From Clostridia bacterium (GTDB lineage Bacteria > Bacillota > Peptococcia > DRI-13 > SM3-B62): DNA of 64,000 nucleotides. A program made the translations under genes and the position numbers. The stretch's first letter is position 1. Every line of letters begins with the position of its first letter. The stretch is taken from NCBI GenBank assembly GCA_018432615.1, contig JAHDSQ010000002.1, positions 157,054 through 221,053 of the forward strand, in the 5' to 3' direction. Below, one piece after another: positions 10,055-61,822 of the stretch. Under the pieces are notes generated by a model. It was not told the origin of the DNA. It searched no databases and worked only from the letters and a program-made list of their open reading frames with translations.

Positions 10055-10768
10055 ATGTCAAGAAAATGGCTGCTGCCAATTACAATCATGTGCTTTATCG
10101 CCGGCTTCTTCTTGACCTTTCAATTAAAGGTTATGGCAGGCATATCGACCGTTAATCCAATTAGTGAAAGAAACACTAATCTCATTACGATAATCAATGA
10201 CCTGGAAGAAGAAATAAAAAACCAAGAGGAATTGATTGGCGAAACACGTGACAACCTTGATAAGCTTCAAGAGGAGCAAATAAAGGGGAGACTGCAGGAG
10301 CTTCAGGACAGCTTAAAAACCGCTAAAATCCTGGCAGGACTCACTCCCGTGGCAGGAAAAGGAATCGTCATTACTGTTGACGACAATACTGAAGGATTGA
10401 AAGCCAATCCTGACGATGACCCAAATAAATATATCATTCATTACAGCCAACTGCTTAATATTGTCAGCGAGCTCAAAGTAGGGGGAGCAGAAGCGATTTC
10501 TATCAACGGACAACGTCTGATAACTACTTCAGAAATCCGTTGTGTAGGCAATTTGATTCTCATCAATACCACCCGTATCGCGCCGCCTTTTGAAATAAGC
10601 GCGATTGGAAGCCCGCGGCTCCTCGCGGAAATCGTGACGGCAAGCGAATTAGCAATAATGAAGCTTTCCAATTATCCGGTTGACCTCAAAGAAGTGGAAG
10701 AACTGATAATACCGGCATATAAGGGAGACTTGCAGTTTAAGTATGCCCAAACAAAAGGGGAGAATTAA
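10055..10768 (+). CDS. DUF881 family membrane-anchored protein (YlxW/YlxX-like), copy 1
   Basis: A 237-residue protein with an N-terminal signal anchor (about residues 5-25) and a charged coiled coil (about 42-90, NDLEEEIKNQEELI onward). The DUF881 domain follows, with the characteristic LNIVSELKVGGAEAISINGQRL and FEISAIGSP segments. These proteins are found beside ftsZ, divIVA or sbp in Firmicutes and Actinobacteria. Their biochemical role is not established. The start has GAGGGG ten bases ahead of ATG. It forms an operon with the small basic protein and a second DUF881 gene, divergent from cdaA. Confidence 0.88.
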   Translation: MSRKWLLPITIMCFIAGFFLTFQLKVMAGISTVNPISERNTNLITIINDLEEEIKNQEELIGETRDNLDKLQEEQIKGRLQELQDSLKTAKILAGLTPVAGKGIVITVDDNTEGLKANPDDDPNKYIIHYSQLLNIVSELKVGGAEAISINGQRLITTSEIRCVGNLILINTTRIAPPFEISAIGSPRLLAEIVTASELAIMKLSNYPVDLKEVEELIIPAYKGDLQFKYAQTKGEN

Positions 10769-10772
10769 CACC

Positions 10773-11129
10773 ATGTGGATACTACCGCTCTTGGGACTGC
10801 TCGCGGGAGCATTCATAGGCTCTACTCTAACCTATGAAGTGCCGCCAACCTACATCAAATACATGTCTATCGCTGTTTTAGCTTCTCTTGATTCTGTGTT
10901 AGGCGGTGTTCGTGCCTTGCTGGAAAACGACTTCGACAGTACAGTGCTTCTGAGCGGTTTCTTCACTAACGCCCTTCTGGCAGCACTTTTGGCTTATCTA
11001 GGGGATCGTCTGGGTGTTGACCTCTATTTGGCTGCCGTCTTTGTTTTTGGGGTTCGCCTTTTTCAGAACCTGGCAAACATCAGGCACGGCCTCCTGTCAC
11101 AATTACGCAACAATAAACAGGAAAAATGA
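10773..11129 (+). CDS. sbp: Small basic protein family (DUF1290) membrane protein
   Basis: A 118-residue hydrophobic protein with three predicted membrane segments (about 2-20, 28-45 and 65-100). It carries the family patterns PPTYIKYMSIAVLASLDSVLGG and ENDFDSTVLLSGFF. It belongs to the Sbp family seen between DUF881 genes near ftsZ in Gram-positive bacteria; function unknown. The ATG at 10773 is chosen over one at 10743, which lies inside the previous gene; AAAAGGGGAG precedes it. The stop overlaps an ATG belonging to a longer reading of the next gene. Confidence 0.88.
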   Translation: MWILPLLGLLAGAFIGSTLTYEVPPTYIKYMSIAVLASLDSVLGGVRALLENDFDSTVLLSGFFTNALLAALLAYLGDRLGVDLYLAAVFVFGVRLFQNLANIRHGLLSQLRNNKQEK

Positions 11130-11140
11130 GGTGGAAAGGG

Positions 11141-11887
11141 ATGAAACGAAAATGGTATCTTACCATTACAGCAGTGTTTTTGGTGATGGGCATTCTTCTC
11201 TCCCTGCAATTCCGTGCGCAAGAGAACTTTGCCAGCGGGCTTACTATGCAAAGAACCGAAAACCTTATCGCTATGGTACGGGACCTGTCCAGTAAAAGGC
11301 AGAATCTGTCCTTTGAAATCCTTGACCTTACCGAAAGATTGACAGCGCAAAAACAAGCCGAACGTGATGACAAGCAGCTTGTATCCAATATAGCAAATGA
11401 AATGAATAAGCTGAATATCATTACCGGCGCTACCGAATTGATTGGACCGGGCTTAACTATTACAATAGACAGGTATATGCCTATTTTATATATTGATATT
11501 ATCAACATCGTCAATGAATTATGGGCCGCAGGAGCAGAAGCCATTTCCATCAATGACCAGCGTGTAACCGCTAATAGCGCAATTTTTTATGCCGAAAACA
11601 GCAATAACGTCTTCTTGACTGTGAATAATCACACGATCGACTACCCTGTGGTAATCATGGCCATAGGCGATGCAGCCAACTTAGAGAAAGGCTTAACCAT
11701 CCCCGGCGGAATCATGGATAATCTGGCACTCTTCGGTGCCTACCCGGTTCTGGAGAAGAAAGATGAAACAACAGTCGTGGCCAGAAATGATACCCCGCAT
11801 TTCTATTTTCTGAAGGAGTATAAGCCTGAAGATACGTCATCTTCGGAAAGCAAACCTGCCGCAAACAACCAAATACACAACGATTGA
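11141..11887 (+). CDS. DUF881 family membrane-anchored protein, copy 2
   Basis: A 248-residue paralogue of the gene two positions upstream. It has an N-terminal membrane anchor (about residues 4-24), a coiled coil (about 40-80) and the DUF881 core (INIVNELWAAGAEAISINDQRV, YPVVIMAIGDA). The ATG at 11141 follows GAGGTGGAAAGGG, a strong ribosome site. An in-frame ATG at 11126 lies within that site and is unlikely. The C-terminal tail is polar and probably disordered. The gene is followed at once by a terminator. Confidence 0.88.
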   Translation: MKRKWYLTITAVFLVMGILLSLQFRAQENFASGLTMQRTENLIAMVRDLSSKRQNLSFEILDLTERLTAQKQAERDDKQLVSNIANEMNKLNIITGATELIGPGLTITIDRYMPILYIDIINIVNELWAAGAEAISINDQRVTANSAIFYAENSNNVFLTVNNHTIDYPVVIMAIGDAANLEKGLTIPGGIMDNLALFGAYPVLEKKDETTVVARNDTPHFYFLKEYKPEDTSSSESKPAANNQIHND

Positions 11888-11937: not shown

Positions 11938-13569
11938 TCATCTCAAGCTCTCCAATCTCTTCACCGCATCCTGCAAGGTAGGAATCAGTCCCGTCATACC
12001 CAAAGACCCATACCTCTTGTGACATAGCCGGAGAATAAGTAGTATCTTCCATTTTCGCCCTTCCGACAAAACTGTTTTACGCTGACTAAAATTGCCTTCC
12101 AACTCGTAATCATACACGACTTCACCTATTTTGTATTGCTTATCTATTGCGGCTACCTCCTGTTTGACATTTCCTCCGTAAGCATTGATTTTGACCAATT
12201 CTCCGCATACATAATATTCAACCGGCTTGGCACTGTCGCAACACGCCATTCTTGTCGGATTCTCACAGTAATAATAAAGGTAATCTTTATCCTGCATAAG
12301 CTTCGCCCCCGTTTCTAAAAAAGGAGGGGTAAACCTACGTCCGGAAGTATTCAAAAAGACCAGGGCGGAAGATGCCCGATATCCCGCAAGATTTGCTGCC
12401 TCAAATAATGACCCCCCCGTCCTTAAGGAAACAACCATCTGATAGAGCTCACTTACCGGAAGACGATATTTCCCCTTTTGATACATTCTGCCATCGGTGA
12501 GCCGTGCCACTTCACGTTCAATATTGACAAGCTCAAGAGGATTTTTTGTAAACAAAACCAGTTCTCCTTCTTTCAACAGAAATTCACAGCCGATCCTATC
12601 AAAAACATTAAAATCCCCCCCTATTTCTTGCTTCCGTTTCAACCACTTATAAAGAACAATGCCATCACTCTCCCCAACTTGGAAGGTGTCCGGTCGGTTT
12701 CCCAGCCATTCCCTCAGCGTATCGGTTTTTAACGGCTCATAAACAGAGCAATAAACAAGGTAATTATGCGGATTCTCGGGATGGTCGTCTTCAAGGGTCA
12801 TTCTGTCTGACTCCTCACAGGCGTCAATATAATAAAAACCGTTTTCTTTTGATATCCGCATCTCATAAGATATTTTGATAACCTCACCTGCATTCGTACT
12901 GATGATGGCATGGGCTTGCAACGCATAAGAGTCTCCCATTATTTCGCAGGAATCCACCCTGGTTTGCAAAAAACTGCAGCAATCAAAGACAGCATTACGG
13001 TGCATTATGAATTCCTCTCTACTTGGCAATAAAGCTTTTCTCTGCCTGCTGGATAGGTCGTAAAGCAAAGCATTATCCAACCTCCTGAGGGCAGATAAAT
13101 AAATACCGGCGGATTCCTTAGCGGAAGGAACCATATTCATCGTTTTACGGAGCAAGATTATACGATCGACTATGTTCGTATCACATTCCAAGAGAAAAGA
13201 AATATCGGTATATTTCCAATCCGGACACGTACCAAACAGCAAATGCCGGCAATAGGCGTCCTGTAACAAAGCCGCCGCCTCAAAATAACTCAGGCGGACA
13301 TAATCACCATAATACTTCCTTTTGCTGCCCAGCAATTCCCCGGTTTTGATAGTCTTTAAACCCTCGTGATTAAAGCACAAAGAAAAATCCTGTATCCATA
13401 TTTTATCTGCTTGACGGTTTTTTTTCCAAAGTATTACCAAATTACAAACACCGGATTCTCTGGTTTGCGAGACAAAAGCCTTATAAAAAAGGGCATGCCT
13501 AAAATTATGATCCCCCTTCTCCTTTTTTATCCACGCAAACTGTCCTCCCCCGGTGTTTATTAAGCTCAT
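11938..13569 (-). CDS. Uncharacterised 543-residue protein
   Basis: I do not recognise a family. The protein is soluble with no signal peptide or membrane helix. It is rich in Tyr, Cys and charged residues and has no obvious nucleotide-binding, metal or DNA-binding motif. Several Cys/His positions occur (for example FGTCPD near residue 112, CENPTRMACCD near 445), but no regular zinc-finger spacing is seen. The ATG at 13567-13569 has GGGAG eight bases or so upstream and the frame is uninterrupted, so it looks like a live gene. It is transcribed alone, bounded by terminators on both sides. A TGACGAA sequence resembling a Spo0A box lies about 90 bp upstream (13660-13666), a weak hint of sporulation control. 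Confidence 0.75.
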   Translation of the reverse strand: MSLINTGGGQFAWIKKEKGDHNFRHALFYKAFVSQTRESGVCNLVILWKKNRQADKIWIQDFSLCFNHEGLKTIKTGELLGSKRKYYGDYVRLSYFEAAALLQDAYCRHLLFGTCPDWKYTDISFLLECDTNIVDRIILLRKTMNMVPSAKESAGIYLSALRRLDNALLYDLSSRQRKALLPSREEFIMHRNAVFDCCSFLQTRVDSCEIMGDSYALQAHAIISTNAGEVIKISYEMRISKENGFYYIDACEESDRMTLEDDHPENPHNYLVYCSVYEPLKTDTLREWLGNRPDTFQVGESDGIVLYKWLKRKQEIGGDFNVFDRIGCEFLLKEGELVLFTKNPLELVNIEREVARLTDGRMYQKGKYRLPVSELYQMVVSLRTGGSLFEAANLAGYRASSALVFLNTSGRRFTPPFLETGAKLMQDKDYLYYYCENPTRMACCDSAKPVEYYVCGELVKINAYGGNVKQEVAAIDKQYKIGEVVYDYELEGNFSQRKTVLSEGRKWKILLILRLCHKRYGSLGMTGLIPTLQDAVKRLESLR

Positions 13570-15295: not shown

Positions 15296-16906
15296 ATGTT
15301 TCGTTTTTTTTTCAGGAAATTTAATTACCTGACCGGTTTATTCAAAACAAAGAAACCGCCCAAGCATGAAAACAGCGGCGAAACTGAAGGTACGGACGAC
15401 CTTAAGTTTCACCGCTCACTAAAGCGCAATCTTTCCTTGCTTAAAAGCACCCTGGGGGAAAGCTGTGACCTCATTCTTCGTGAATTTTCCTTTGGCACAG
15501 AGCCCGAAATATATGCTGCCTTAATATTCATTGACGGCCTCGTTGATAAGGCTATGATCAACGAAAGCATCCTTCAGCCTTTGTTATACGATACACGACT
15601 TGCCGGAGTCGATCAGGAGTTCTCCCTTGCCGGTATGAAGGCTATCAGCCGCCGTATGCTGGCGGCGGGTGAAGTGAAACTAACAGACAAACCGGATAAA
15701 GCAATTTCTCACATCCTGGCAGGAGACAGCCTTCTTTTGGTTGACAAAGACTCGCAGGCACTCATCATCAACTTACGAGGCTGGAAAGCACGGAGCGTTG
15801 AAGATCCGAAAACCGAATCTGTTGTTAGGGGTCCCCGAGAAGGCTTCACTGAAACACTTTTGACCAATACCGCCATGCTGCGACGGAAACTGAAAGAACC
15901 GGGATTACGGATCGAATCCTTTGTTATTGGCAAAAGAACCCGCACAGACGTGGCTTTAGTCTACCTGCAGGAAATCGTCAAACCCGGACTGGTCGAAGAA
16001 ATTAGGCAGCGTCTCAGAAGAATAGACACCGACTCTATTCTCGAATCGGGGTACATAGAAGAATTTATTGAGGACCATCCTTTTTCCCTCTTTGCCACCA
16101 TTGGCAACAGTGAAAAACCGGATACCGTCGCCGCCAAAATCCTCGAAGGCAGGGCGGCCATACTCATCGACGGCACACCCTTTGTCTTGACGGTTCCCAT
16201 GCTCTTTATTGAAAACTTTCAAAGCGCTGAGGACTACTATTCCCGCCCGTATTTCTCCTCGTTAGTCAGAATGCTGCGGTTTTTATCCTTCTTCATCAGC
16301 ATCATGGCTCCTGCAGTATATGTCGCGTTGAACACCTTTCACCAAGAACTCCTTCCCACCCCTCTCTTGATTACTATGGCCTCAGCCCATGAAGGCGTTC
16401 CTTTTCCCTCGGTGGTGGAAGCAATCGGCATGGTAGTTGTTTTCGAAATCCTGCGGGAAGCAGGCATTCGCTTACCCCGCCCTGTTGGGCAGGCCATCAG
16501 CATCGTAGGCGCACTGGTGATTGGAGAAGCGGCTGTCAGCGCCGGCCTGGTGGGCGCACCTATGGTCATAGTGGTATCTTTAATGGCCATTTCCTCCTTT
16601 GTTGTACCCGCGCAACTTGACGCAGGTGTCGTCATACGTCTGATTTTAACCGTTCTAGCTGGGTTTATGGGGGCATTAGGCATCTCCATCGGGCTTTTAT
16701 TCATTTTAATTCATTTGTGTTCTCTAAGTTCCTTTGGTTATCCTTACCTCTCGCCACTGTCTCCTTTTTCTCCCGGTGGCTTGAAGGATGTTTTTGTCCG
16801 TGTTCCTTTTTGGGCTATGTCTAAACGTCCCTACAGGCTCAGCAGACATGATGGGCTGCGTCAAAAACCTGACCTAATGCCGCTCAAGGCCTCTAGTAAA
16901 GAATAA
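15296..16906 (+). CDS. gerAA: Spore germinant receptor A subunit (GerA/GerK-A family)
   Basis: A 536-residue integral inner-membrane protein of the spore. The soluble N-terminal half (about 50-315) contains GerAA family signatures (YDTRLAGVDQEFSLAG; LLLVDKDSQALIINLRGW; VVRGPREGFTETLLTN). The C-terminal part holds about five membrane helices (from VRMLRFLSFFISIMAP near 325 to about 490), including the conserved ASAHEGVPFPSVVEA loop. With GerAB and GerAC it would sense nutrients and trigger germination. First gene of a gerAA-gerAC-gerAB order. The ligand cannot be read from sequence. Confidence 0.96.
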   Translation: MFRFFFRKFNYLTGLFKTKKPPKHENSGETEGTDDLKFHRSLKRNLSLLKSTLGESCDLILREFSFGTEPEIYAALIFIDGLVDKAMINESILQPLLYDTRLAGVDQEFSLAGMKAISRRMLAAGEVKLTDKPDKAISHILAGDSLLLVDKDSQALIINLRGWKARSVEDPKTESVVRGPREGFTETLLTNTAMLRRKLKEPGLRIESFVIGKRTRTDVALVYLQEIVKPGLVEEIRQRLRRIDTDSILESGYIEEFIEDHPFSLFATIGNSEKPDTVAAKILEGRAAILIDGTPFVLTVPMLFIENFQSAEDYYSRPYFSSLVRMLRFLSFFISIMAPAVYVALNTFHQELLPTPLLITMASAHEGVPFPSVVEAIGMVVVFEILREAGIRLPRPVGQAISIVGALVIGEAAVSAGLVGAPMVIVVSLMAISSFVVPAQLDAGVVIRLILTVLAGFMGALGISIGLLFILIHLCSLSSFGYPYLSPLSPFSPGGLKDVFVRVPFWAMSKRPYRLSRHDGLRQKPDLMPLKASSKE

Positions 16907-16924
16907 TTAGCGAGGTGGCAGCCG

Positions 16925-18139
16925 ATGAAGAAAGATAATATAGCAGGCATCTCCTATCCCAAACTGTTTTTTTTCCTGCTTCTCACCCTTACACTTATAA
17001 CGCTTCCGGGCTGTTGGAACCGGAGGGAATTGGACACACTGGCTATTGTGGCGGGCGCAGCCATCGACAAGATTCCCGGAGAAGAGAAGATTAGGATTAC
17101 AGCACAGGTAATAAATCCGTCGGCCATGCAATCCCCCCAAACGGGTGAAATGTCGGCGGGTGCCAAGGAATACGTCAACTTCTCGGAAACCGGCACAACC
17201 GTATTCGAGGTGGCCAGAAAAATCACCACTTTTTCCAGCCGCAAACTCTATTGGCCCCACAACCAGGTGCTGATCCTCAGTGAAGACATCTGCAAACACG
17301 GTATCAGTCACTGGATTGATTTTTTTATCAGAGACCATGAGACAAGGTTGCGGGTCAAGGTCCTTGTCTCTGAAGGAGAGGCCAGAAGCATTCTTGAGAA
17401 AGAGGCTGCCTTGGAAAAATTACCTGCCCGGGAAATAGGCGAAATTGTGGACGGCCTTGCTTCCACATCCATCGCCCCTCAAACCACACTCCGGGATTTT
17501 CTTTGTCGCATGCTCGAAGACTCCGGCGCCCCGGTAGCACCCCTGATTAGTTTAAAAGAAAAGGAAGGCAAAAAAGAAACGCAAATTTCCGGTACAGCGG
17601 TATTTAAGAGGACAAGGCTTGTTGGAACTCTTGATCCCTTCGAGTCACGGGGCTTCCTTTTTATCACCGGTAAAGTCCAAAGCGGTATTATCCTAATCAA
17701 ATGCCCGGGCAGCGAGGACTTATCCAGTTTGGAAATAATTAATGCCGGCAGTGAAACCGTTCCCTTAATCAAGGACGGCAAGCTCTCTGTTACCGTAAAA
17801 ATAACAGAGGAAGGCAATCTCGGCTGTCAAATGTGCGGCTCGGATTTAACAAAGCCTCAAACCTGGCAACTTTTGGAGGAAAAACAGAACAAAGCCATCT
17901 TGGCGGAAGCCATGTCCAGTGTAAAAAAAGCTCAAGAACTGCGAGCCGACATCTTCGGTTTTGGCGAAGCCTTCCACCGCAAATATCCGCTAAAATGGAA
18001 CGGACTTAAAGAGAATTGGGACGAACACTTTGCCAATCTGGAGGTAAACATCGAGGTGGAATCTCATCTCCGCCGTTCCGGGCAGATCTCCTTGCCACCC
18101 CACCACGAGAGCCGCTATTATAAGGAGAATCACCTATGA
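16925..18139 (+). CDS. gerAC: Spore germinant receptor C subunit, Ger(x)C lipoprotein
   Basis: A 404-residue lipoprotein. A signal peptide ends in the lipobox LPGC, the Cys being about residue 30, followed by WNRRELDTLAIVAGAAID, the classic Ger(x)C start. VEVSRK-like (FEVARKITTFSSRKLYWPHNQ), RDHETRL and EIGEIVDGL segments match the family. It would sit on the outer face of the spore inner membrane with GerAA and GerAB. The gene begins 18 bp after gerAA (GAGGTGG ribosome site) and overlaps gerAB by four bases. Confidence 0.95.
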   Translation: MKKDNIAGISYPKLFFFLLLTLTLITLPGCWNRRELDTLAIVAGAAIDKIPGEEKIRITAQVINPSAMQSPQTGEMSAGAKEYVNFSETGTTVFEVARKITTFSSRKLYWPHNQVLILSEDICKHGISHWIDFFIRDHETRLRVKVLVSEGEARSILEKEAALEKLPAREIGEIVDGLASTSIAPQTTLRDFLCRMLEDSGAPVAPLISLKEKEGKKETQISGTAVFKRTRLVGTLDPFESRGFLFITGKVQSGIILIKCPGSEDLSSLEIINAGSETVPLIKDGKLSVTVKITEEGNLGCQMCGSDLTKPQTWQLLEEKQNKAILAEAMSSVKKAQELRADIFGFGEAFHRKYPLKWNGLKENWDEHFANLEVNIEVESHLRRSGQISLPPHHESRYYKENHL

Positions 18140-19221
18140 AACTTGTGAAAGAAAACATATCCGTTCCAGAATACTATGCCCTTATCTGCGTCATGGTGTT
18201 TGGTGTTGCTTTGGTCTTTACACCTACCCTGCAGGCAAAAAACCTGGCCTGGCTGGCCATACTTGTCGGTACAGGAGAAGGTCTGGTATTGTATGCCCTT
18301 TTCTCCACCCTGTACCTCCGACATCCCGGAAAAACTCTGATCGAAATCAACGAACTCGTTTTCGGTAAAAGCATTGGCAAACTAATCTCCCTGTCTTACC
18401 TTTGGTACTTCACTCACTTAGCCTCCCTCAACCTAATATCCTACGGCGACTTTTTTCATATGCTATACCCCGAAACACCACTTTTCGTCCTACTCCTTTT
18501 AATGACGGTAGTGTGCATTGCCGTTCTGCGCGCAGGTATTAGTGTTTTAACAAGATGCGGTCTGATATTGGTCCCCATCATTCTTTTTTTCTACATATCC
18601 GATACCTTCCTGCTCATCCGGGATATGGACCTAAACAATTTGCTGCCCTTCAGAAATGTAACCCTGCAGGATTTTTTATGTGCGTCCCACGCAGTAGGCA
18701 CGGTACAATTCGGTGAACTGATCGTGCTTTTGATGATTACCCCCTTTTTGACAGACACCACAGCAGTAAAATCCGGCAAATATGCCCTCCTTTTAGCCGC
18801 CCTTTTACTTGCCCAAGCTGCGGCACGCAATACCGCCGTATTAGGTGTCCTGAAGGATATCCTCGTCTACCCGACCTTTCACGTCCTGCAGCTCATTAAC
18901 ATCGCCGATATCCTGACCCGCTTGGAAATAATAATTGTTATCAACTTTTTCTATATCGGCTTTATAAAAATATCCGTCATCTATTATGCGGCGGTTAAGG
19001 GCACGGCTCAACTATTACGGATGCGAACCTACCGCCCCTTGCTCATCCCCTTTGGAGTGCTGATAATTATCCTTGCCTTCCTAAACTTCGATTCCAGCCA
19101 AGAAAATTTTATCTTTGCCTGTAGTATCTACCCGTACTACGCCCTCCCCTTTCAGCTTTTCTTTCCGTTAGCCGCCCTTTTGCTGTCTTGGCGAAAAAAT
19201 AAGAAAAAGAAGGTGAAATAA
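18136..19221 (+). CDS. gerAB: Spore germinant receptor B subunit, GerAB permease family
   Basis: A 361-residue polytopic protein with about ten membrane helices, from the amino acid permease-like GerAB family (endospore germination permease). It starts MKLVKENISVPEYYALICVM, as in many Clostridial homologues, and retains the RTGISVLTRCGL-like segment (residues about 133-146). It likely carries the ligand-binding pocket. Translation is coupled to gerAC through an ATGA overlap (18136-18139). The C-terminal tail is very basic (RKNKKKKVK). Confidence 0.94.
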   Translation: MKLVKENISVPEYYALICVMVFGVALVFTPTLQAKNLAWLAILVGTGEGLVLYALFSTLYLRHPGKTLIEINELVFGKSIGKLISLSYLWYFTHLASLNLISYGDFFHMLYPETPLFVLLLLMTVVCIAVLRAGISVLTRCGLILVPIILFFYISDTFLLIRDMDLNNLLPFRNVTLQDFLCASHAVGTVQFGELIVLLMITPFLTDTTAVKSGKYALLLAALLLAQAAARNTAVLGVLKDILVYPTFHVLQLINIADILTRLEIIIVINFFYIGFIKISVIYYAAVKGTAQLLRMRTYRPLLIPFGVLIIILAFLNFDSSQENFIFACSIYPYYALPFQLFFPLAALLLSWRKNKKKKVK

Positions 19222-19222
19222 A

Positions 19223-19444
19223 GTGCCGCTGCTTCTTGTTCTTATCTTCATCGCCCTTTTCCTTTATGAGTTGCCGGGTCTGTTGGCAAATAACTACCGC
19301 TACGAGTTGCTCATCTTCTCCCTTTTTTTATCCTTTTCTTTTTTATTATGCCTATTAAAGCTACTCAACTTCGACTTGCCCAGTCCCGTTAAAGTAATAG
19401 ATACCGTAGTCTCGTATATTCTACGTGTCCCTTGCCGCCTTTAG
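19223..19444 (+). CDS. Small membrane protein of the gerA operon
   Basis: A 73-residue protein starting with GTG one base after the gerAB stop, with GAAGGTGAAATAA as ribosome site. Two hydrophobic helices (about 2-19 and 27-47) are separated by a short polar loop. I do not recognise a family. Its tight position suggests an accessory role in the germinant receptor complex, comparable to the short GerD- or GerXD-like two-helix proteins encoded beside some receptors. That is inference from position and topology only. Confidence 0.65.
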   Translation: MPLLLVLIFIALFLYELPGLLANNYRYELLIFSLFLSFSFLLCLLKLLNFDLPSPVKVIDTVVSYILRVPCRL

Positions 19445-19531
19445 AAAATATTGATAGTTTTGCTCTCTCACGCAGGAATGTCCGCAGACAATGTAGAACT
19501 AATCTTCTAGTAAGGAAAGAGGTGGACATTC

Positions 19532-20629
19532 TTGCCGGACAAACACATTTTTTTGCGACCTGGTGATAGAATCAACTTCAAAGCCGTCTCCCCCCTTTAT
19601 CGTGAAAAATATGAAGCCGAAGTAATGGGTGTCAAGGATAGTACTTTATTTGTGTCTATGCCGCTTTCCCAAGGAAAATTGGTTCTTTTGAGTACCGGAA
19701 CTCCTCTGGAGGTAACTTGCCCTTATGGCCGTTTTTCTTTTGCTTCTGAGGTCTTAAAGCGCGATTTCCAACCCTCTCCCCACCTGGTACTGCAACTCCC
19801 TTACTATTTATCTGCCAAAAAAAACAGAGCCAGGGTGATAACAGTCACCAGTGGTAAAGGCGGCGTAGGCAAAACAACCTTTACCATTAATTTTGCTATC
19901 AACCTCGCTCAAAAGGGATACCGCGTTTTTGTTATGGACGCGGATTTAGGAACCGCTAATATCGACGTCCTGCTGAACATACAGCCGAAATACAACCTCA
20001 ATCACGTCATCAACCGGGAGAAGGAGTTATTAGACATTGTTGTGGAAGGCCCGGGCGGCTTTCATCTCATCCCCGGCGGTTCCGGAGTCCTTAGCTTAGC
20101 CGACATGGAGGAATGGCAGTTCAACCGCGTAATTTCCGGACTCCAAACACTGGAAGATTACGCCGATATTATTCTTATCGACACCGGTGCCGGTTTAGGT
20201 AAAAATGTAATCAATTTCGCCTTAGCCGCCGATAATATCATCATCATTACAACACCTGAGCCTCATTCCATCACCGATGCTTACGCCGTCGTTAAGGTGC
20301 TGAACCAACAGAACAAGAATCTTGTTCCCTATCTTGTCTTGAATAGGGTAGAATCAGCTAAAGAATACCGGGCAGTAGCCACTAAAATAGAACAGGTTAT
20401 TTACCGTTTTTTAGGTATGAAAATTTCACCCCTCGGTTATGTCCTGGATGACCCTGTGGTACCGAAGGCCAATCGCAGGCTCGAACCCTTTTCTCTCAGT
20501 CATCCCTCATCCTCCGCAGCCCGTTGTCTGCAAGCCTTAACCGATAAGTTCGTACAACCGGAACAGCCTATATCTTCTTCTTTTTCCGAATTAGGATTTT
20601 TTAACAGGCTGAAAGAGCTTTTTAAATAA
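19532..20629 (+). CDS. MinD/FlhG-like ATPase with N-terminal PilZN (YcgR-N)-like domain
   Basis: A 365-residue protein. Residues 1-92 resemble the N-terminal beta domain of YcgR-type flagellar brake proteins (YEAEVMGVKDSTLFVSMP, LLSTGTPLEVTCPYG, FASEVLKRD). From about 100 the protein is a deviant-Walker ATPase of the MinD/FlhG family: SGKGGVGKTT (Lys109, Lys114), MDADLGTANIDVLL, IILIDTGAGLG, NRVES. The last residues (FFNRLKELFK) form an amphipathic helix like a MinD membrane-targeting tail. A c-di-GMP-binding PilZ barrel is absent. The TTG at 19532 has AGGTGG eight bases upstream. No flagellar genes are nearby, so spatial regulation of motility or germination machinery are both guesses. Confidence 0.8.
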   Translation: MPDKHIFLRPGDRINFKAVSPLYREKYEAEVMGVKDSTLFVSMPLSQGKLVLLSTGTPLEVTCPYGRFSFASEVLKRDFQPSPHLVLQLPYYLSAKKNRARVITVTSGKGGVGKTTFTINFAINLAQKGYRVFVMDADLGTANIDVLLNIQPKYNLNHVINREKELLDIVVEGPGGFHLIPGGSGVLSLADMEEWQFNRVISGLQTLEDYADIILIDTGAGLGKNVINFALAADNIIIITTPEPHSITDAYAVVKVLNQQNKNLVPYLVLNRVESAKEYRAVATKIEQVIYRFLGMKISPLGYVLDDPVVPKANRRLEPFSLSHPSSSAARCLQALTDKFVQPEQPISSSFSELGFFNRLKELFK

Positions 20630-60265: not shown

Positions 60266-61063
60266 TTAGGCCTTAAACCCCAAGAGTTTCCTCAATTTAC
60301 CCATAATACCGTTGCTGGTCTCTAAAGAAATCAGCGGTACCTGCTCTCCGGTTATTCTCTTAGCAATATTGCGGTAGGCTTGACCCGCCAGAGAGTTGGC
60401 ATCTAGCACAGCTGGTTCTCCCCTGTTGGTGGATACCACAATGTGCTCATCTTCCGGGACGACTCCGGCCAACTCTATAGCCAGAATGTCTATCATATCA
60501 TTGATATCCATCATATCGCCCTTCTTAACCATATCAGGTCTGATTCTGTTTATCACCAGTTGAGGATTTCTCAGTTCCGCCGCCTCTAAAAGACCTACTA
60601 TTCTGTCGGCATCGCGAACAGCCGCAACCTCCGGAGTCGTTACAACTATAGCCCTTTCTGCTCCTGCAATAGCGTTTTTAAAACCCTGCTCAATCCCTGC
60701 CGGACAGTCTATTATCACATAATCGTACTCTTCCTTGAGTTTTTCGGTCAATTCTTTCATCTGCTCGGGGCTTACGGCAGATTTGTCTTTGGTCTGAGCT
60801 GCCGGAAGAAGCACTAGGTGTTCGAAGCGCTTGTCCTTAATCAAGGCTTGCCTAAGCCTGCAGTTACCTTGCGCCACATCGACAAGATCGTACACTATCC
60901 TGTTCTCCAGGCCAAGGACTACATCAAGGTTTCTCAAGCCGATATCGGTATCCATCATAACGACCTTGTAACCCATAGAAGCCAGGGCAGTACCAATATT
61001 TGCGGTTGTAGTAGTCTTGCCTACGCCCCCCTTGCCGGAGGTTATTACAATAACTTCTCCCAT
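60266..61063 (-). CDS. minD: Septum-site-determining ATPase MinD
   Basis: A 265-residue deviant-Walker ATPase: ITSGKGGVGKTTTTANIG (Lys11, Lys16), MDTDIGLRNLDVVLGLENRIVYDLVDV and DCPAGIEQGF. The C-terminal GKLRKLLGFKA is the membrane-targeting helix. It recruits MinC to the membrane. It starts 3 bp after minC. Confidence 0.97.
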   Translation of the reverse strand: MGEVIVITSGKGGVGKTTTTANIGTALASMGYKVVMMDTDIGLRNLDVVLGLENRIVYDLVDVAQGNCRLRQALIKDKRFEHLVLLPAAQTKDKSAVSPEQMKELTEKLKEEYDYVIIDCPAGIEQGFKNAIAGAERAIVVTTPEVAAVRDADRIVGLLEAAELRNPQLVINRIRPDMVKKGDMMDINDMIDILAIELAGVVPEDEHIVVSTNRGEPAVLDANSLAGQAYRNIAKRITGEQVPLISLETSNGIMGKLRKLLGFKA

Positions 61064-61066
61064 TAA

Positions 61067-61753
61067 TCAATTCCTCCTGTTAATTTCTATGTAATTTCCT
61101 ATCTTTTTCATATCCCTGACTATAACGGCACCTTCGTAAATGTGGGCAACTTCAGGTCCAGTAGGGTCTTCGTCCGGTGCCCTGGTGATATAGTTGGCAA
61201 TTCGCAATTGAGTTGGTTGCAGCCTTATCGCCCCTACCCAGGCTCTTTCATCACCCGCCGCTCCCGCATGGACTGTTCCGCTTAATTTCCCCATCACCAA
61301 AACATATCCGGAGGCAGAAACCTCAGAGCCGGGCTTGGTATCTCCGAAGACAATCACGTTTCCTGCGAAAGAAACATCCTGCCCGGAGCGAATATTTCTC
61401 CTGACAATCAATGTCGGCAAATCGCTTACTTCATCAATATTCCGTTTGCTTCCTTCTTCGTCTCGGGACGATACCCGCATCTGCCTGTGTTGTCCCTTCT
61501 TTTCGCCTGTTCTAATCGCTTTTACCTTTAACCCGTTCTCCTGAAACAGTCGCCAAAGAGAACCCACCTGCTCCGGCGTAAGGATACGCCCTCCGGCTTC
61601 AAAAACAACGCCGGCACCTGCAAAGAAGGATTTTCCTTTCCCCTCCAAACGCTCCTTGAGGGTATCAAAGACATCTTCCCATTCTGCTTCGTCATTGCAG
61701 CGGACAACAAGTCCTTCCTTATTTCCTTTAAACACCACAACATCGTTTGTCAT
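61067..61753 (-). CDS. minC: Septum-site-determining inhibitor MinC
   Basis: A 228-residue inhibitor of FtsZ. The N-terminal domain (about 1-75) is variable. The C-terminal beta-helix has IRSGQDVSFAGNVIVFGDTKPGSEVSASGYVLVMGKLSGTVHAG-like sequence (split around residues 115-160), which binds MinD. The start is uncertain: an ATG at 61753 is 14 bases after GGAGG, and a TTG at 61765 is only two bases after it. A terminator separates it from mrdA. Confidence 0.92.
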   Translation of the reverse strand: MTNDVVVFKGNKEGLVVRCNDEAEWEDVFDTLKERLEGKGKSFFAGAGVVFEAGGRILTPEQVGSLWRLFQENGLKVKAIRTGEKKGQHRQMRVSSRDEEGSKRNIDEVSDLPTLIVRRNIRSGQDVSFAGNVIVFGDTKPGSEVSASGYVLVMGKLSGTVHAGAAGDERAWVGAIRLQPTQLRIANYITRAPDEDPTGPEVAHIYEGAVIVRDMKKIGNYIEINRRN

Positions 61754-61822
61754 ATCCGATACCAATCCCTCCAGGTGTACTGCATACTTAATCTAAGTTC
61801 GCTGTTTATAAAAAAAAACCTG

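Follow-up and report, generated by a model that had tools for sequence, protein, structure and literature searches.

The closest described systems are flagellar. The brake proteins MotI (DgrA) and YcgR carry an N-terminal PilZN-type domain and a C-terminal c-di-GMP-binding PilZ domain, and residue D54 of the N-terminal domain of E. coli YcgR has been reported as required for FliG binding (PMC10140304), this PilZN domain being described as the FliG-binding domain in two further papers (PMC11800159, PMC12713396). FlhG (FleN, YlxH) is an ATPase normally encoded beside flhF in the flagellar operon; its N-terminal helix bears the motif DQAxxLR, the glutamine of which is reported to stimulate FlhF (PMC12826062). 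Residues K177, R207 and F215 of Geobacillus FlhG are given as needed for FliY and GpsB binding (PMC12327844, where 277 is also printed), and the same source describes a division link with GpsB in B. subtilis, while FlhG of Campylobacter is reported to affect division (PMC3228812). MinD, like the protein described here, is a deviant-Walker ATPase with a membrane-targeting tail. In E. coli cellulose secretion, a SIMIBI ATPase, BcsQ, works with BcsE and BcsA, and a PilZ domain takes part as well (PMC7439463); in that system, unlike in the present case, the domains are on separate proteins and the role is in cellulose secretion. In the part of the FlhG review that was available (PMC12826062), neither PilZ nor YcgR is mentioned.

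In this study, we describe a gene joining a PilZN-type domain to an FlhG-class ATPase, located at positions 19532-20629 (+) of the window, by which we mean the whole 64,000-nucleotide stretch of DNA that was analysed. The gene is a single open reading frame with a TTG start, encodes 365 amino acids, and is preceded by a Shine-Dalgarno-like sequence, AGAGGTGG (19518-19525, +), 6 bases upstream of the start codon; the opposite strand has stops throughout. The protein comprises the PilZN-type domain (19559-19801, +; residues 10-90), the deviant-Walker ATPase (19829-20557, +; residues 100-342) with the Walker A motif SGKGGVGKT (19850-19876, +; residues 107-115, most of them invariant among 38 fusion proteins), and a C-terminal amphipathic helix, a probable membrane-targeting sequence (20594-20626, +; residues 355-365). 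Judged from its sequence, the fusion is a variant of the known FlhG class in which a domain of the flagellar-brake type has taken the place of the FlhF-activating helix. Narrow searches, confined to listings of openly accessible papers, found no description of a PilZN-FlhG architecture.

The preliminary description had likened the N-terminal residues to the N-terminal domain of YcgR, and both profile and fold bear this out. The Pfam family PF12945 (PilZNR) matched residues 10-90 with an E value of 6e-14 and 52.4 bits (cut-off 23). An AlphaFold model of residues 1-99, built from 9 alignment rows, had a mean pLDDT of 83 and six strands, and its top match in the PDB was MotI/DgrA (5vx6; Foldseek E 2e-4; VIA: Z 12.8, rmsd 2.7 over 92 residues, chain residues 2-100), followed by VCA0042 (Z about 11.6); against the N-terminal domain of E. 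coli YcgR (5y6h), Z was 8.5. The fold match supports the profile match and is not independent of it, since the other rows used for the model were YcgR-type N-domains. The N-terminal domain of E. coli YcgR belongs to another Pfam family, and FliG binding may therefore not carry over to the fusion. In a full-length model the N-domain was poor (block pLDDT 41-62) because the alignment had no N-domain rows. The fusion thus has its N-terminal domain in common with MotI and YcgR, whereas an ATPase stands where these proteins carry the PilZ domain; PF07238 (PilZ) was not matched, among the Pfam families listed, in the window protein or in the 38 aligned fusion proteins. The claim that a complete ATPase replaces the PilZ barrel was therefore upheld.

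Pfam assigned residues from 101 onwards to AAA_31/ParA-type ATPase families, and this part matched FleN (5j1j, E 1e-48) and Geobacillus FlhG (4rz2, E 3e-40) in the PDB. A tree was built from 94 of the 160 rows collected, with 14 rows named for dropping and 19 FlhGs from named genomes kept. In this tree MinD split off at 100/100, and the fusions fell among the FlhGs. Of the ATPase class given earlier as MinD/FlhG-type, the FlhG half thus stands and the MinD half does not; the fusion was also rejected as the MinD of its genome, a separate minC-minD pair being present in the window (60266-61765, minD 60266-61063; named by eye). The fusion rows formed one branch in 35 of 38 cases (support 82/93), which also held two rows without a PilZN-type domain, and the loci L092, L097 and L100 fell outside it. 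The AU test did not reject a single fusion clade (p 0.293), so that a single fusion event for all members may be entertained. Invariant ATPase motifs were common to all 38 aligned fusion proteins, and few positions, two, separated these from canonical FlhGs.

Within the clade, the genome G129 encodes an FlhG-class ATPase in which an HU DNA-binding domain (PF00216, E 1e-32) replaces the PilZN-type domain (L077:1396-2559, -). This gene adjoins a RodZ-type gene, and a frame of similar length is present in G091, a genome of the same genus. Another related copy, L207, is without any N-terminal domain.

The C-terminal amphipathic helix proposed earlier is predicted here as well, as the kind of helix that the fusion has in common with FlhG. 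The full-length model ended in a helix at residues 356-364, and the tails of 41 fusions had a median amphipathic moment of 0.68, compared with 0.62 for 43 FlhG-class proteins, most of them canonical, a set that includes two fusions (L100, L101) and L077 and L207, which have neither feature. Taken alone, the tail of the window protein gave a shuffle p of 0.09.

The PilZN-type domain occupies the site of the DQAxxLR helix that activates FlhF in other FlhGs. Thus, the loss of this helix is as much the notable change as is the loss of the PilZ barrel. The motif was retained in only 2 of the 42 fusions (L092 and L097), and is missing from the window protein and 39 others. The FliY/GpsB face, numbered with a chain offset of 8 that was set by requiring K, R and F jointly, was largely kept. 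The K177 position was K in 42/42 fusions and 52/52 other FlhGs; position 207 was K or R in 36/42 against 48/52, and position 215 was F or Y in 40/42 against 52/52, the window protein having K, K and F. With this face kept and DQAxxLR lost, the fusion looks able to bind the partners of FlhG but not to activate FlhF. These positions are common to all FlhGs and may reflect shared ancestry only.

Full-length fusion matches were found in 15 of 46 genomes of the class and in at least 31 of 398 genomes of the phylum, the remaining 367 of which may hold fusions; both samples together gave 42 distinct genomes. The architecture is a conserved family, well beyond chance. PF12945 matched 35 of the 38 aligned members at E <= 0.01; L105 had no match, and L101, tested apart, did match. 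The genome G079 (L085), where the match begins only at residue 113 near a contig end, was not counted as having a fusion and is still included in the 43-genome FlhG count and in the 28-genome FlhA set. Among the 43 genomes searched with the canonical FlhG of the window's own genome (including G079, an unconfirmed fusion), 38 had at least two FlhG-like proteins, and the fusion is usually a second FlhG beside the canonical one. The canonical flhG of the window genome lies at C32:107159-108043, and a gene next to it matches PilZNR. Among 80 related loci from named genomes, none was recognised as a fusion. A Thermohalobacter locus (L112) matching residues 1-364 was rejected as a fusion, consisting of a canonical FlhG with DQAxxLR and then a PilZN-type gene.

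A PilZN-type gene came immediately after canonical flhG in 34 of 39 loci (e.g. L004, L188-L205), one of the five exceptions having no flank, so that the two modules already travel together. Among the loci examined, only L092, L097 and L100 place the fusion itself beside flhF in the flagellar operon. L092 and L097 share the order flhA, flhF, a fusion of DQAxxLR, PilZN-type domain and ATPase, a PilZN/PilZ gene, cheB and cheA (chemotaxis genes named by eye), and their genomes gave no FlhG-like match other than these fusions (L092:9231-10436 and L097:9324-10472). L100 has flhF, canonical flhG, a fusion without DQAxxLR, a PilZN-type gene and cheB. The gene had been described as lying outside any flagellar cluster, which holds for the window locus but not for these three relatives. 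FlhG is normally encoded beside flhF, whereas the fusions are mostly outside the operon. A sigma-D-like promoter was sought upstream of the fusions in 41 loci; none was seen apart from one weak match (L048), and such a promoter was rejected for the fusion.

Other neighbourhoods recurred, in gene lists that were inspected post hoc and whose counts are purely descriptive. Genes for DUF881, DUF1290 (sbp) and DUF881 lie at 10055-11887 (+) of the window, a neighbourhood that is conserved in the class and divergent from the cdaA and ybbR/cdaR genes. DUF881 was within 9 kb of the fusion in 12 of 15 class loci, and L048 and L049 had the DUF881-sbp-DUF881 genes immediately upstream, in the same orientation. 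YlxW and YlxX are, we assume, DUF881 proteins. In C. difficile, YlxW and YlxX have been reported to localise to midcell (PMC12548448). The gene order soj-spo0J-fusion was found in four loci (L089, L094, L095 and L101), followed in L089 by M23 peptidase and bactofilin genes, and 6 of 42 loci, representing 3 lineages, had M23 peptidase genes directly adjoining the fusion. Seven other fusion loci lay between rluD-lspA-ileS-like and pyrR-like genes (named by eye). A 543-aa protein without a Pfam match is encoded at 11938-13569 (-) of the window; it belongs to a cluster of 12 and is conserved beside the DUF881 genes.

FlhA was present in all 42 fusion genomes, against a background of 326 of 398 phylum genomes, and the fusion was found in none of the 11 FlhA-negative class genomes. 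By Fisher tests, which ignore relatedness, FlhA was associated with the fusion in the class (15/15 genomes vs 20/31 without fusion, p 0.006) and in the phylum sample (31/31 vs 295/367 others, which may hold fusions, p 0.0016). Because FlhA is widespread in the phylum and the genomes are not phylogenetically independent, this co-occurrence is weak evidence. Moreover, 20 class genomes have FlhA and no fusion, and the fusion is therefore not needed for flagella.

The position of the gene in the window raised the possibility of a sporulation or germination protein. A germinant-receptor operon (15296-19221, +; GerA, Spore_GerAC and Spore_permease) does lie beside it, as first described, and the fusion gene is on the same strand, 87 bases after a small open reading frame that follows the operon. 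No intrinsic terminator was found between operon and fusion gene, and the two may therefore be co-transcribed. Moreover, most fusion genomes have SpoIVA. Against this, only 4 of 41 loci have the ger operon close to the fusion, relatives occurring within the flagellar or the soj-spo0J operon or beside DUF881/sbp, and we judge this neighbour incidental. SpoIVA showed no significant link with the fusion (13/15 vs 21/31 class genomes, p 0.16). The fusion is missing from seven class genomes that have SpoIVA but not FlhA, and three fusion genomes have no SpoIVA match (G044, G045 and G163; completeness 86, 93 and 80), G044 and G045 having the fusion and FlhA. A sporulation or germination role was accordingly rejected as highly improbable. 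The small frame (19223-19444, +; 73 aa) also occurs in the sister species (L036), and in L037 a 69-aa frame lies between the ger operon and the fusion position. It is also very doubtful that the fusion is a second regulator of FlhF in which the PilZN-type domain took over the part of the activator helix. The two fusions that have DQAxxLR ahead of the PilZN-type domain come after flhF, and the domain is therefore compatible with FlhF control; but the other 40, including the window protein, have no such motif, and a beta domain is unlike the helix from which the catalytic glutamine comes (PMC12826062).

Less remote, though still unlikely, is a motor clutch or brake that works without c-di-GMP: ATP-driven recruitment to the membrane would carry the PilZN-type domain to rotor or stator, slowing rotation as MotI and YcgR do. 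MotI/DgrA being the closest fold, the pairing of PilZN-type genes with flhG and the want of a PilZ match in 38 members all fit such a clutch. However, the part of YcgR reported to bind MotA is the PilZ domain with the C-tail (PMC12713396, PMC10140304), which the fusion is missing, and outside the flagellar operon the gene contexts are not motor-related. Somewhat better placed, but still rather doubtful, is a non-flagellar spatial regulator, an FlhG ATPase recruited to division or chromosome partition with the PilZN-type domain as a general protein-binding module. The soj-spo0J loci, the one with M23 peptidase and bactofilin genes included, speak for such a regulator, as do the nearby or directly upstream DUF881 genes and the two clade members without the PilZN-type domain, one with HU beside a RodZ-type gene. 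The presence of FlhA in every fusion genome, the lack of a fusion in all 11 FlhA-negative class genomes and the fusions inside the flagellar operon stand against it.

The reading that we prefer, at a probability of about 0.4, is that the fusion is a paralogue of FlhG that acts independently of FlhF, as a membrane adaptor switched by ATP, which would dock on the C-ring and link it to the division or partition machinery. ATP binding would dimerise the protein and bring it to the membrane, where the FlhG face and the PilZN-type domain, FliG-binding in E. coli YcgR, would dock it on the flagellar C-ring. Docked in this way, it would tie basal-body number or position to the machinery of division, cell wall or chromosome partition. 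It would not stimulate FlhF, a job which the canonical FlhG of the same cell would keep. We favour such an adaptor because the ATPase is of the FlhG class and retains the ATP-switch motifs, the predicted C-terminal membrane helix and the FliY/GpsB face, DQAxxLR is lost in 40/42 members, and the protein is mostly a second FlhG, while the fusions that keep DQAxxLR sit in the flhF-flhG slot as the only FlhG-like match. It is further suggested by the pairing of flhG with PilZN-type genes, by FlhA in all fusion genomes, and by the spatial contexts of soj-spo0J (4 loci), DUF881-sbp-DUF881 (2) and M23 peptidase (6/42). Against it, most fusions lie outside flagellar clusters and, one weak match in 41 loci apart, show no sigma-D-like promoter.

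The fusion bears on how flagellated bacteria apportion and position flagella at division, and the family predicts a branch of FlhG that would work without FlhF and connect flagella with the cell cycle. We offer, only tentatively and as an unlikely rather than a likely proposition, the broader view that widespread FlhF-independent FlhG paralogues bring basal bodies, or a C-ring landmark, into the partition and division programme by means of a rotor-binding domain. If this is true, flagella and chromosome origins or division sites would be positioned by one connected set of ATPases.
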